Origin: Blautia sp.
GTDB lineage: Bacteria > Bacillota > Clostridia > Lachnospirales > Lachnospiraceae
Assembly: GCA_017463155.1 (NCBI GenBank)
Contig: JAFTPT010000008.1
Location: forward strand, 62,001-126,000
Direction: 5' to 3'
Length of the DNA stretch: 64,000 nt
Part shown: in pieces, positions 2,022 to 6,043 of the stretch
How the letters are laid out: each line of letters begins with the position of its first letter
Position numbering within the stretch: the stretch's first letter is position 1
Translations under genes and position numbers: made by a program
The notes under the pieces: generated by a model
Seen by the model: the letters and a program-made list of their open reading frames with translations, nothing else
Database searches by the model: none
Told to the model about the DNA's origin: nothing

Positions 2022-3701
2022 ATGCTGGTTCATCTTCATGTCAGAAATCTGGCACTGATCGAGGATATCGAGGTGGACTTTGGCCCCGGACTGAATATCC
2101 TGACCGGGGAAACGGGAGCGGGCAAATCTATTCTGCTCGGCTCCATGCAGCTGATCCTGGGCAGCAAGCCTTCCCGGAACCTGATCCGGGAGAATGCGTC
2201 GTATGCGCTGGTGGAACTGCTGTTCCAGGTGGACGAACAGAAGACACTGGATGCTCTTTCTTCCCTTGACATCGAAGCCGAGGAAGGGCAGATCCTGCTG
2301 TCCCGCAGGATCATGGACGGAAGGAGCATCTGCAAGATCAACGGGGAGACCTGTACCGTGGGGCAGATGAAGGCGGCGGCCGGACTGCTTCTGGACATTC
2401 ACGGCCAGCACGAGCACCAGACTCTCCTGCAGAGAGACAGGCAGCTCGCGATCCTGGACGAATTCGGAGGGCAGGATCTGAAGGCGTGCCGGGGAACGGT
2501 CACGGAGGCTTATCACAAGTACCAGAAGGCTGTCAAAGCCCGCAGGGAGCTTGATATCGGCGAGGAAGAACGTGCCCGGGAGATCGCCTTTCTGGAGTTT
2601 GAGATCGGGGAGATCGAAAACGCGGATCTTAAGCCCGGCGAGGACGAGGAACTGGAAAAACGCTACCGGCGGCTGAATAACAGCCGGCGGATCACCGGAA
2701 CGATGGAGGAAGTGCACGGCCTGTCCGGAACGGACGGCGGAGCCGCCGACCTGATCGGAAAAGCCGTTCATGAGATCCAGAGGGTGACGGAGTACGATGA
2801 CGCGCTCCTTCCTCTGTATTCGTCGCTGGGGGACATAGACGCACTTCTCCAGGACCTCAACCGGGAGATCTCCGCCTATCTGGATGACCTGGTATTCGAC
2901 GAGGAGGAATTCTACCGCACGGAGCAGCGGCTCGATCTGCTGAACAGCATGAAGGCCAGGTACGGCTCCGGGATCGAGGAGATCCTCGCCTATCAGCAAA
3001 AACAGCAGGAGAAGCTCGAAAAGCTGGAACGCCACGGTGAACTGCTTGCCGGGGCCGTCAGGGACGAGGAGGAAGCGGCTGCGAAGCTTACAAAAGCCTG
3101 CGACGCACTCACGGGGCTCCGAAAGGAGTACGCGGATAAGTTTGCGGCCGAGATCCGGAAGGGGCTTTCCGAACTGAACTTCCTGGAGGTGCAGTTCGAG
3201 ATCCGCTTTGACAGGAGGAGCAGCTTTACGGAGAAGGGGCTTGATGAGGTCACCTATGAGATCAGCACCAATCCGGGCGAGAGTATCCGTCCCTTGTCCG
3301 AGATCGTATCGGGCGGAGAACTGTCCAGGATCATGCTTGCCATCAAGACCATCCTGGCCGACCGGGACGAGATCGGCACGATGATCTTTGACGAGATCGA
3401 CGCGGGGATCAGCGGACGGACGGCGCAGAAGGTATCCGAAAAGATGGCGGCCATCGGCCGGCACAGGCAGGTGCTCTGCATCACCCATCTGCCGCAGATC
3501 GCAGCCATGGCGGACACGCATTTTGAGATCGTAAAGCATGGGGATGCCTCCGGGACCGTGACCGAGATCCATCCGCTTGACGAGAAGGCGGCCGTAAAAG
3601 AGCTGGCCAGACTCCTCGGAGGCGCCACGATCACGGAGGCGGTGGAGCAAAACGCGGTCGAGATGAAAAAGCTTGCAAACGCCCTGAAACAGGGGCTTTG
3701 A
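2022..3701 (+). CDS. recN: DNA repair protein RecN
   Basis: SMC-like ATPase acting in double-strand break repair. The 559 residues show Walker A GETGAGKS near residue 30 and a central charged coiled-coil region (roughly 150-370). The C-terminal signature is SGGELSRIMLAIK, with Walker B as MIFDEIDAGISG. It follows argR after 10 bases with a strong AAGGAGG site, so it is in the same operon. In spore formers the next genes are spoIVB and spo0A. Here spoIVB is absent and a terminator follows directly. Confidence 0.96.
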   Translation: MLVHLHVRNLALIEDIEVDFGPGLNILTGETGAGKSILLGSMQLILGSKPSRNLIRENASYALVELLFQVDEQKTLDALSSLDIEAEEGQILLSRRIMDGRSICKINGETCTVGQMKAAAGLLLDIHGQHEHQTLLQRDRQLAILDEFGGQDLKACRGTVTEAYHKYQKAVKARRELDIGEEERAREIAFLEFEIGEIENADLKPGEDEELEKRYRRLNNSRRITGTMEEVHGLSGTDGGAADLIGKAVHEIQRVTEYDDALLPLYSSLGDIDALLQDLNREISAYLDDLVFDEEEFYRTEQRLDLLNSMKARYGSGIEEILAYQQKQQEKLEKLERHGELLAGAVRDEEEAAAKLTKACDALTGLRKEYADKFAAEIRKGLSELNFLEVQFEIRFDRRSSFTEKGLDEVTYEISTNPGESIRPLSEIVSGGELSRIMLAIKTILADRDEIGTMIFDEIDAGISGRTAQKVSEKMAAIGRHRQVLCITHLPQIAAMADTHFEIVKHGDASGTVTEIHPLDEKAAVKELARLLGGATITEAVEQNAVEMKKLANALKQGL

Positions 3702-3724: not shown

Positions 3725-3751
3725 TGTCGATTTTTCTCGAAACGTGTCGAA
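3725..3751 (+). promoter_or_regulatory. Three phased 0A-like boxes
   Basis: TGTCGAT (3725), TCTCGAA (3735) and TGTCGAA (3745) repeat at exact 10-base spacing just after recN and 31 bases before the -35 of the spo0A-like gene. The Spo0A site consensus is TGTCGAA, and tandem sites one helical turn apart are how Spo0A dimers bind. The match is seen; binding is inferred. Confidence 0.55.
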
Positions 3752-3754
3752 CGA

Positions 3755-3782
3755 AAAAGGAGGCCTTTTGGCCTCCTTTTGT
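3755..3782 (+). terminator. Rho-independent terminator of the recN operon
   Basis: AAAAGGAGGCC and GGCCTCCTTTT form a perfect 11-bp stem with a TTTT loop, ending in a T run. It lies 54 bases after the recN stop. Confidence 0.9.
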
Positions 3783-3811
3783 TGCATTGTGCGTGTGGCC
3801 GGACGTATAAT
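3782..3811 (+). promoter_or_regulatory. Promoter of spo0A-like gene
   Basis: TTGCAT (3782-3787) and TATAAT (3806-3811) are separated by 18 bases, downstream of the recN terminator and just before the Spo0A-like reading frame. It gives that gene its own sigma-A-type promoter. Confidence 0.6.
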
Positions 3812-3846
3812 GATCGTGCCAGACAAAAATGAAATGAGGTGGTCTT

Positions 3847-4500
3847 CTGGAAAAGATCCGTGTACTGCTTGTACAGGAAGATCCTTCCGGGGATACAAGG
3901 CTCGATCAGCTGATCGGCGAAGAGAAAGCCCTGCTGGTGGCAGGGACGGCACACAATCAAAAGGAGCTGCTGCGCCTCATCGAAAATGCGAACCCCGATC
4001 TGGTCATCATGGACAGATTTGTGTCCTGGCTTGACAGCCGGGGGCAGAAGTTTCCGGGACTGTTCCGGTCCCTCAAGCCGGTCGACTACCGGATCCGGCT
4101 TCCCCGCTCCCAGATCCGGGATCAGAGCATTGAAAGGAAGGTGACCCGGTACATACTGGACACGGGCGTTCCGGCCCACGTCAAGGGCTACCTGTACCTG
4201 CGGGACGCGATCATCATGGCCGCCTTCGATGAAACGCTCCTGGATTCCATGACGAAGCTTCTCTATCCGGCGGTCGCCGAGAGGCACAAGACGACAGGAC
4301 CGCGTGTGGAACGTGGGATCCGCCACGCCATTGAACTCGGCTGGGATGACGGGGAAGGGGAGGACATGAAGAAGGTGTTTGAACGCACCGGGGAGAATCC
4401 GTCCAAACCGACCAACAGTGAGTACATTGCCCTTCTGGCCGACCGGATCCGTCTGGAAGGCAAGATCCGGCCGCGGATCAGGCCGGGACGGCAAAAATAG
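3847..4500 (+). CDS. spo0A: Spo0A-like regulator with shortened receiver domain
   Basis: Response-regulator transcription factor of the Spo0A family, 217 residues if started at the CTG at 3847 (GAGGTGG at 3836-3842). No ATG, GTG or TTG lies between the in-frame stop at 3835 and the first receiver strand. The first ATG (3937) would remove that strand. The N-terminus reads like a receiver: an acidic pair at residues 11-12 and a phospho-acceptor in LVIMDRF at about D56. The segment from helix 3 to strand 5, with the conserved Thr and Lys, is missing. Spo0A is normally about 267 residues. The DNA-binding domain is intact (GVPAHVKGYLYLRDAI, the R-V-E-R-x-I-R-H-A-I segment, KPTNSE). Probably DNA binding without normal phospho-switching; spoIVB is missing upstream. 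Confidence 0.85.
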   Translation: MEKIRVLLVQEDPSGDTRLDQLIGEEKALLVAGTAHNQKELLRLIENANPDLVIMDRFVSWLDSRGQKFPGLFRSLKPVDYRIRLPRSQIRDQSIERKVTRYILDTGVPAHVKGYLYLRDAIIMAAFDETLLDSMTKLLYPAVAERHKTTGPRVERGIRHAIELGWDDGEGEDMKKVFERTGENPSKPTNSEYIALLADRIRLEGKIRPRIRPGRQK

Positions 4501-4594: not shown

Positions 4595-6043
4595 ATGAAG
4601 AACATTTTATTTGCGACTTCTGAGGCGGTACCTTTTATCAAGACAGGAGGACTCGCTGACGTAGCAGGCGCTCTTCCGAAATGCTTTGACAAACGTTATT
4701 TTGACATTCGGGTCATTCTTCCCAAATATGCCTGCATGAGGCAGGAATGGAAGGACCGGATGGAGTATATTACCCACTTCTATATGGATATCGGCTACAA
4801 GAACTGCTACGTGGGTATTATGCACATGGAGTATGAGGGGATCCACTTCTACTTCATCGACAACGAATATTATTTCAGCGGTCCGATGCCCTATGACAGC
4901 GCTCCCTGGGACCTGGAAAAATTCGCTTTCTTCTCAAAAGCGGTCCTGTCCGTGCTGCCGGTGATCGGCTTCCGCCCCGATATCATCCATTGCCATGACT
5001 GGCAGACAGGCCTTGTGCCCGTTTACCTTCATGATACCTTCCAGCAGAATGAGTTCTTCTGGGGGATCAAGACCATCATGACGATCCACAACCTCAAATT
5101 CCAGGGCGTGTGGGATGTCAAGACCGTACAGGAGATCACAGGTCTCTCGGATTACTATTTCACGCCTGACAAGCTGGAAGCCTACAAGGACGCCAACTTC
5201 CTGAAGGGCGGCATCGTGTTTGCGGACGCCGTGACGACCGTCAGCGCGACCTACGCCGAGGAGATCAAGACGCCCTTCTACGGGGAACGTCTGGACGGAC
5301 TTCTGAACGCCCGTTCCCAAAGCCTCCGGGGCATCGTGAACGGGATCGACTATGAGGTGTTCGATCCCAAGACGGACAAGCATATCCCGCACAACTATGA
5401 CGCAAGGACGTTCCGCAAGGAGAAGGTCAAAAACAAGCTCGCACTCCAGAAGGAGCTGGGACTTGACGAGGATCCGAAGGTCATGATGATCGGTATCGTA
5501 TCACGGCTGACCGACCAGAAGGGCTTCGACCTGATCGCCTACATGATGGATGAGCTTTGCCAGGATGCCGTGCAGGTGGTCGTGCTCGGTACCGGTGAGG
5601 AACGATATGAGAATATGTTCCGTCACTTCGACTGGAAGTACCATGGAAAGGTCTCCGCGCAGATCTATTACAACGATGCGCTTTCGCACAAGATCTATGC
5701 GGCCTGCGACGCTTTCCTGATGCCGTCCCTGTTCGAGCCCTGCGGACTCAGCCAGCTGATGAGCCTCCGGTACGGCACTCTGCCGATCGTCCGTGAGACC
5801 GGCGGCCTGAAGGACACGGTGGAGCCGTACAATGAGTACGAGGGGACCGGCACCGGCTTCAGCTTCCGCAACTACAACGCGCATGAGATGCTGTACACGA
5901 TCCGCAACGCGGAACGTGTATTCTACGACAAAAAGCGGGAGTGGAACAAGATGGTCGACCGGGCCATGCATGCGGATTTCTCATGGAACAATTCGGCACG
6001 TAAGTACGAGGAAATGTACAACTGGCTGATCGGGGACAAATAA
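4595..6043 (+). CDS. glgA: Glycogen synthase (ADP-glucose type)
   Basis: Transfers glucose from ADP-glucose to the growing alpha-1,4-glucan (GT5 family). The 482 residues have the nucleotide-sugar loop KTGGLADVAGALP at residues 17-29 and a C-terminal GT-B half with VSRLTDQKGFDL. The ESEx-type donor site is SLFEPCGLSQL, followed by RETGGLKDTV. Length is normal. GGGAGGGG sits in front of the ATG. It stands alone, without the glgC/glgD/glgP genes that often accompany it. Confidence 0.95.
   Translation: MKNILFATSEAVPFIKTGGLADVAGALPKCFDKRYFDIRVILPKYACMRQEWKDRMEYITHFYMDIGYKNCYVGIMHMEYEGIHFYFIDNEYYFSGPMPYDSAPWDLEKFAFFSKAVLSVLPVIGFRPDIIHCHDWQTGLVPVYLHDTFQQNEFFWGIKTIMTIHNLKFQGVWDVKTVQEITGLSDYYFTPDKLEAYKDANFLKGGIVFADAVTTVSATYAEEIKTPFYGERLDGLLNARSQSLRGIVNGIDYEVFDPKTDKHIPHNYDARTFRKEKVKNKLALQKELGLDEDPKVMMIGIVSRLTDQKGFDLIAYMMDELCQDAVQVVVLGTGEERYENMFRHFDWKYHGKVSAQIYYNDALSHKIYAACDAFLMPSLFEPCGLSQLMSLRYGTLPIVRETGGLKDTVEPYNEYEGTGTGFSFRNYNAHEMLYTIRNAERVFYDKKREWNKMVDRAMHADFSWNNSARKYEEMYNWLIGDK

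Follow-up and report, generated by a model that had tools for sequence, protein, structure and literature searches.

The spo0A gene of a Blautia genome raises the question of what a Spo0A protein can still do once half of its receiver domain is missing. The gene lies in the window, i.e. the whole 64,000-nucleotide stretch of contig JAFTPT010000008.1 (assembly GCA_017463155.1) analysed here, and its surroundings comprise the following features (window coordinates).

2022..3701, +, recN, directly upstream of spo0A; in several spore-gene-bearing relatives spoIVB intervenes
3725..3751, +, three tandem 0A-like boxes at an exact 10-bp pitch (TGTCGAT, TCTCGAA, TGTCGAA)
~3759-3780, hairpin and T-run, 5' of the promoter-like element (by eye)
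3782..3811, +, promoter-like TTGCAT-18 bp-TATAAT (by eye; candidate)
3836..3842, +, Shine-Dalgarno-like GAGGTGG for the CTG start (by eye)
3847..4500, +, half-receiver spo0A, 217 aa, CTG start, TAG stop
3847..4032, +, remaining receiver half, approximately residues 1-62, from strand 1 to just past strand 3
4012-4014, +, D56 codon in the receiver half, residue 56 being the phospho-Asp
4033..4122, +, linker replacing helix 3 to helix 5 and the hinge; no receiver match (alignments)
4123..4464, +, complete Spo0A_C DNA-binding domain, approximately residues 93-206 (Pfam, 1fc3 and 1lq1 matches)
4595..6043, +, glgA, directly downstream of spo0A; GlgA is 84-91% identical in ten half-receiver relatives

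Architecture of the half-receiver Spo0A

The spo0A frame is open from 3838 to 4500, with neither a frameshift nor an internal stop. A preliminary description of the locus had matched it to Spo0A through about D56 and again through the full DNA-binding domain, with about 50 residues gone without a frameshift, and both Pfam and alignments agree. The missing residues lie between the D56 region and Spo0A_C, are present in the full-length relatives in the alignment, and belong to the part of the receiver that bears the conserved Thr and Lys. The Pfam Response_reg model is matched only over its positions 1-49 of 111, scoring 21.8 bits and thereby staying below its cut-off (30.2), and Spo0A_C (PF08769) over 1-104 of 104 (112 bits versus a cut-off of 25, 1.5e-32, residues 99-201). 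The Spo0A receiver structures 1dz3, 9phz and 5wq0 give weak phmmer matches that reach residue 64 (E between 0.002 and 0.038), and the Spo0A_C structures 1fc3 and 1lq1 are matched over residues 93-206. Of the residues expected in a complete receiver (D10, D11, D56, Thr and Lys), the protein retains D56, has Q and E at positions 10 and 11 of the acidic set (D and D in relatives) and lacks the rest. As the score against the NCBIfam equivalog TIGR02875 (164.7 bits) is under the cut-off of 200, the protein is regarded as an orthologue by locus and not as a full equivalog.

When ATG, GTG, TTG, CTG and ATT are all considered, a codon scan finds only CTG 3847 and CTG 3865 as start-like codons near the beginning of the frame, and strand 1 is preserved only with the former, the start proposed earlier on the same grounds. 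With ATG, GTG and TTG alone, the first start would be GTG 3937 and strand 1 would be lost. At the matching position, the ten half-receiver relatives start with ATG in nine cases and TTG in one (G039).

The recN-spo0A-glgA order marks the locus as the orthologous one. As the preliminary description had noticed, spoIVB is absent between recN and spo0A in the window, and it is also undetected in the genome to which the window belongs (G000, the own genome below). In eight of the ten other half-receiver genomes spo0A lies directly between recN and glgA; in G061 recN falls beyond the contig end, and in G018 two other genes separate recN from spo0A (L053:2175-4627). These two are unrelated genes that by eye resemble those of a flavodiiron protein and a DUF362-like protein, at the position that spoIVB occupies in several relatives. 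Searching the own genome with the protein led to two places, the window spo0A and a weak one (5.5e-4) that corresponds to a stand-alone Spo0A_C gene; full-length Spo0A, part of the counter-evidence that the preliminary description had envisaged, was not found elsewhere in it.

Distribution and apparent loss of sporulation genes

Protein and profile searches identified the half-receiver form in 11 of the 64 genomes of the genus, the own genome included (G000, G002, G017, G018, G026, G030, G039, G048, G057, G061 and G062). All 11 have an open spo0A frame, encoding 203-223 residues with a receiver that ends just past strand 3. In a tree built from six markers of the spo0A neighbourhood and covering 33 genomes (31 of the 64 plus two outgroups, some markers missing), ten of the 11 form one clade (UFBoot 87), whose sister consists of G031, G035 and G038 (joint node 96). 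G018 stands outside the clade and groups with G024 and G047 (node 100), so that the half-receiver form arose at least twice on this tree. Nodes inside the clade are weak (40 to 72 in the marker tree; 28 to 72 in the sigma tree discussed below, outside well-supported pairs).

The sporulation markers searched were SpoIVB, SpoIVA and SpoIIIAE. None of the three was detected in any of the 11 half-receiver genomes. SpoIIIAE was found in 45 of the 64 genomes and was undetected in 19, counting G014 as negative despite its SpoIVA and SpoIVB; all 11 half-receiver genomes are among the 19 negatives and none among the 45 positives (Fisher p 1e-7, uncorrected for kinship). As the assemblies are drafts (the own genome 92% complete in 55 contigs, the 11 ranging from 66 to 94% complete), single absences can be gaps; gaps are an unlikely cause of three undetected families in all 11. 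The earlier suggestion of an asporogenous lineage is supported, the own lineage appearing to be a former spore-former in which the tested sporulation families are gone and whose relatives keep them. The sister genomes have a full-length receiver and likewise lack detectable SpoIVB, SpoIVA and SpoIIIAE, which suggests that sporulation was lost first and the receiver half second.

SpoIIR (PF09551) was dropped as a marker: 37 genomes match it, none of this genus, and it is uninformative here because it goes undetected although many genomes of the genus have SpoIVA and SpoIVB. It is missing from the search results genus-wide, even beside SpoIVA, SpoIVB and spoIIGA-sigE (four loci read), and other families of the order have SpoIIR; either SpoIIR of this genus is very divergent, or another signal reaches SpoIIGA.

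No comparable half-receiver was seen in the 16 loci read out of 18 named ones (all but L035 and L041). Thirteen records of a phage collection match the window protein, and the ten examined look full-length or DNA-binding-domain-only by span. Other arrangements of Spo0A_C include a 180-aa protein whose N-terminus is short (Ruminococcus MAG, L042:2824-3366) and a protein in which two stretches resemble Spo0A_C (Clostridia MAG, L049:1091-1894).

Selection on the kept receiver half

The kept receiver half is under constraint in the testable pairs. Synonymous sites are unsaturated only between G002 and G026, and the dN/dS values of this pair are 0.049 for the half-receiver, 0.149 for the linker and 0.047 for the DNA-binding domain. 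The corresponding values for G062/G039 are 0.171, 0.127 and 0.232, at a dS of at least 1.0. The pair G017/G057 has a saturated dS, and its dN amounts to 0.083 for the half-receiver versus 0.23 for the DNA-binding domain. The view that Spo0A has been kept as a regulator, already put forward for the window, gains from this purifying selection in one close pair, from clade-wide retention and from the 0A-box arrays described below.

An alternative is that the half-receiver still serves as a signal input, with D56 being phosphorylated or a ligand or partner protein supplying the missing half. D56 is kept in five of the 11 genomes (G000, G002, G026, G017 and G057) and D10-D11-D56 together in the last four, which would be odd if phosphorylation were irrelevant, and the lower dN in the half-receiver of G017/G057 points the same way. 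However, D56 is replaced in the other six (G062, G039, G030, G061, G018 and G048), and the segment bearing Thr and Lys is absent. Signal input is possible, given the five genomes that retain D56, and on the whole unlikely; a working Spo0A independent of phosphorylation would fit the missing receiver half and the loss of D56 in six of 11 genomes.

0A-box arrays at spo0A and across the genus

The 0A box was taken as TGTCGAA. The array at 3725-3751 is the only match to the three-box pattern in the window (0.14 expected) and scores 19 of 21, and none of 300 resampled sequences scored as high. P values for arrays were obtained from 300 first-order resamplings per region and cannot fall below 0.003. 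Seven of the 11 half-receiver loci have a three-box array upstream of spo0A at P <= 0.007, with scores between 15 and 20 out of 21. By the same test, three of 22 full-length loci have one (G003, G058 and G070); at P 0.01, seven of the 22 full-length loci have a match. The array is absent in the remaining four half-receiver loci (G062, G030, G018 and G048). Because exact TGTCGAA occurs upstream of spo0A in 11 of the 22 full-length loci, autoregulation looks ancestral, and the change in the half-receiver lineage would seem to be stronger arrays.

Pairs of boxes at a 10-bp step (TSTCGAWNNNTSTCGAW) occur at 55 sites in the 11 half-receiver genomes versus two for the reversed control. They are not enriched in the other 53 genomes (28 versus 29 for the control), 47 of which have a Spo0A of full-length size and six of which (G005, G045, G049, G055, G056 and G063) have no complete one in the assembly. 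The half-receiver genomes contribute unevenly: G000 nine, G002 eight, G017 four, G026 nine, G057 eight, G061 seven, G062 three, G039 four, G048 two, G030 none and G018 one, the last inside a gene. Related genomes do not count as independent witnesses of the enrichment, and some pairs fall inside long frames, maybe by chance. Spo0A DNA targets appear to be retained in the half-receiver genomes.

The pair pattern was chosen in preference to a loose scan of G000 (TCGAAN{1,11}TCGAA), as the 55 matches of the latter peak at multiples of three bases and such peaks reflect coding background; its 10-bp class has seven members, two of which (C31 and C40) were dropped as targets for lying inside long open frames. 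Nor was TGTCGAANNNTGTCGAA enriched in G000 with two mismatches allowed (28 matches versus 29 in the control; 11 of these matches differ at one position or none, and the control total is not broken down in this way). The two-mismatch search also met an array at C41, ahead of further genes. In G039 the boxes are mostly NCTCGAA and not TGTCGAA (L051:5005-5041, and upstream of the stand-alone gene, L155), which could reflect changed recognition.

Candidate regulon

Exact box pairs of the own genome are found at six places.

Place 1, upstream of spo0A
Place 2, at the stand-alone Spo0A_C gene; seven scored boxes, eight by eye, the longest array in G000
Place 3, at a SigE-like sigma gene
Place 4, at signal peptidase I, followed by two proteins; SipW/TasA-like genes
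Place 5, at a prepilin peptidase gene
Place 6, between phosphatase-like and transposase-like genes (named by eye)

At place 4, the signal peptidase I is over the cut-off of TIGR02228 and under that of SipW, and the first protein after it has a SipW-type signal peptide over the cut-off, with BsaA and TasA matches under theirs. Beyond place 5 and a gene on the opposite strand lie T2SSE, two T2SSF and a DUF5702 protein, a Tad-like set for which a shared transcript is not implied. Box pairs recur at a prepilin peptidase gene in G026 and at the stand-alone Spo0A_C gene in G039. They are also found at FHA-domain proteins (VWA just under the cut-off) in G057 and G017 and at protein kinases in G057 and G026, with G002 added to both by sequence likeness only; as G002 and G026 are close kin, they count nearly as one. 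G062 has a further tandem-box pair (contig C7:22528, L080), some 190 bp upstream of a gene that is DnaN-like by eye, possibly near the replication origin.

The stand-alone Spo0A_C gene of G000 (L055:3920-4282, contig C5) encodes a complete Spo0A_C domain, and frames of this kind (approximately 112-170 aa) exist in many genomes of the genus, including spore-gene-bearing ones and ones with full-length Spo0A. It is conceivable that the arrays mainly serve this protein and not the half-receiver Spo0A, as it has the complete DNA-binding domain and its own gene has the longest array in G000. Scored tandem boxes upstream were counted at nine stand-alone loci (L055, L155-L160, L165 and L166), with seven in G000 and six in G039; yet the other seven loci, including both from spore-gene-bearing genomes, have no upstream array of three or more boxes, and box pairs are unenriched in the many full-length-Spo0A genomes that also have the gene. 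We therefore hold this explanation to be rather improbable, although a stand-alone Spo0A_C protein might bind at the boxes as well.

The SigE-like sigma gene

The sigma gene of G000 is closest to SigE models while being far under their cut-offs (NF006158, 141.9 bits versus 339; TIGR02835, 128.1 versus 348.6), with the SigK model NF004471 close behind (129.6 versus 252). A sigma tree intended to tell SigE from SigK was abandoned, the sequences being too divergent for SigE to be separated from a second sigma group. The gene adjoins aroD in the same orientation in G000 (205 bp between them), G039, G061, G030 and G062 and in the opposite orientation in G048; in G002 it is about 2 kb from aroD and in G026 the contig ends. 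No match to spoIIGA was found beside it within the loci read. In four spore-gene relatives (G003, G015, G028 and G043) spoIIGA directly precedes sigE, on a stretch with aroE in G003 and aroD in G043. By eye, SigE next to spoIIGA has about 35 residues ahead of its LPAPL motif, compared with about ten ahead of LPEPL in the G000 sigma factor; the G002 and G026 frames allow about 20. The factor seems to be without need for SpoIIGA processing.

Sigma-gene box pairs are present in G000, G002, G026, G039 and G061. In the alignment of these five upstream regions, TTCGACANNNTTCGACAA and TATAAT are invariant and the flanks diverge, and forward boxes at 10-bp steps precede this candidate promoter. The array is absent in G030, G062 and G048; the sigma profile has no match in G017 or G057, and its match in G018 is a copy interrupted by stops.

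These arrays bear on whether spo0A is a decaying relic, on its way out after the loss of sporulation with a half-receiver that is junk. Spo0A of the ten half-receiver relatives is only 31-40% identical to the window protein, next to a GlgA that is 84-91% identical, and the host genomes are without the three tested sporulation families, as a relic would predict. Against this, the frame is open in 11 of 11 genomes, the close pair has a half-receiver dN/dS of about 0.05, a deep clade keeps the identical reduction, and box arrays stand at spo0A in seven genomes and at the sigma gene in five; decay is quite improbable. An assembly or sequencing artefact, which a draft genome of 55 contigs and a rare CTG start might bring to mind and which had been named earlier as a way for the reading to fail, is very unlikely because ten other genomes share the identical architecture.

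A model for Spo0A without a complete receiver

The window gene is probably a working Spo0A orthologue whose receiver lost its C-terminal half after or along with the loss of sporulation, and which would act independently of phosphorylation and drive a stripped Spo0A-to-sigma cascade. With strands 4-5 and the Thr/Lys switch residues missing, the receiver could not make the phosphorylation-induced change; its restraint on the DNA-binding domain would therefore be gone, and activity would follow the amount of protein, set through spo0A autoregulation. The candidate target promoters carry two to seven or more 0A boxes one helical turn apart, a spacing at which neighbouring DNA-bound molecules could replace the cooperativity of phosphate-driven dimerisation. 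Through them Spo0A would activate the SigE-like sigma factor and control surface and matrix genes, and the kept receiver half may serve as a contact within dimers or along arrays. Arrays at some full-length loci, and half-receiver genomes with no array at the sigma gene, weigh slightly against this model. We infer DNA binding by this Spo0A, the direction of regulation, phosphorylation independence, oligomerisation and the function of the surface genes from sequence patterns.

A bolder version can be offered tentatively, with the odds rather against it. The half-receiver may have become a DNA-templated oligomerisation domain that assembles without phosphate on 0A arrays, the longest of which have seven or eight boxes at one-turn spacing. 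Both control steps of early sporulation, namely Spo0A phosphorylation and pro-sigma cleavage, would then have been removed, and a dose-driven cascade reused for surface structures.

Relation to known systems

Compared with full-length Spo0A, the half-receiver form shares the locus of spore-gene relatives, the start of the receiver, D56, a full Spo0A_C and 0A-type boxes at its own gene; it differs in the loss of about 50 receiver residues, in undetected SpoIVB, SpoIVA and SpoIIIAE, and in the 10-bp arrays. The sad67 allele of B. subtilis spo0A is an in-frame deletion in the receiver. It offers a parallel as an altered Spo0A acting without phosphorylation, which we infer for the protein studied here; sad67 is a laboratory allele, whereas the present case is a natural reduction fixed in a clade. 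The constitutive activity of sad67, independent of phosphorylation, is described in an excerpt of PMC4689505, and binding of legitimate targets by the isolated Spo0A DNA-binding domain without phosphorylation in one of PMC3485338. Truncated Spo0A homologues borne by phages likewise have the DNA-binding domain without a working receiver, but according to an excerpt of their description (PMC10294663) they are without any receiver, whereas half is kept here in a chromosomal orthologue.

The sigma gene shares with the spoIIGA-sigE operon its sporulation-type sigma product, the proximity of aroD/aroE and the upstream boxes of the 0A type, and differs in having no adjacent spoIIGA, in missing the long N-terminal extension and in its multiplied boxes. 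In the excerpted sources, sigE and spoIIGA are transcribed together and an N-terminal extension of 27 residues is cleaved off (PMC13174948), and phosphorylated Spo0A acts on the spoIIG promoter (PMC12090719).

In a survey of gut Firmicutes, spo0A and a high sporulation signature coincide in 98.9% of genomes (1343/1358; PMC8340488, excerpt). Spo0A has also been reported in 30 apparently non-spore-forming genomes (PMC3533761, excerpt) and in 15 such genomes by another study, which includes a different role of Spo0A among the possibilities (PMC6136694, excerpt). The titles and abstracts that full-text searching of a single open-access library brought up contain no description of a half-receiver Spo0A. 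Beyond the preliminary description, this form proves to be common to a clade, and its likely regulon includes a SigE-like gene without an adjacent spoIIGA. The clade is a specific, testable case in which Spo0A would have outlived sporulation as a receiver-reduced regulator with readable candidate targets, and it provides natural variants for asking how the Spo0A receiver restrains and dimerises its DNA-binding domain.
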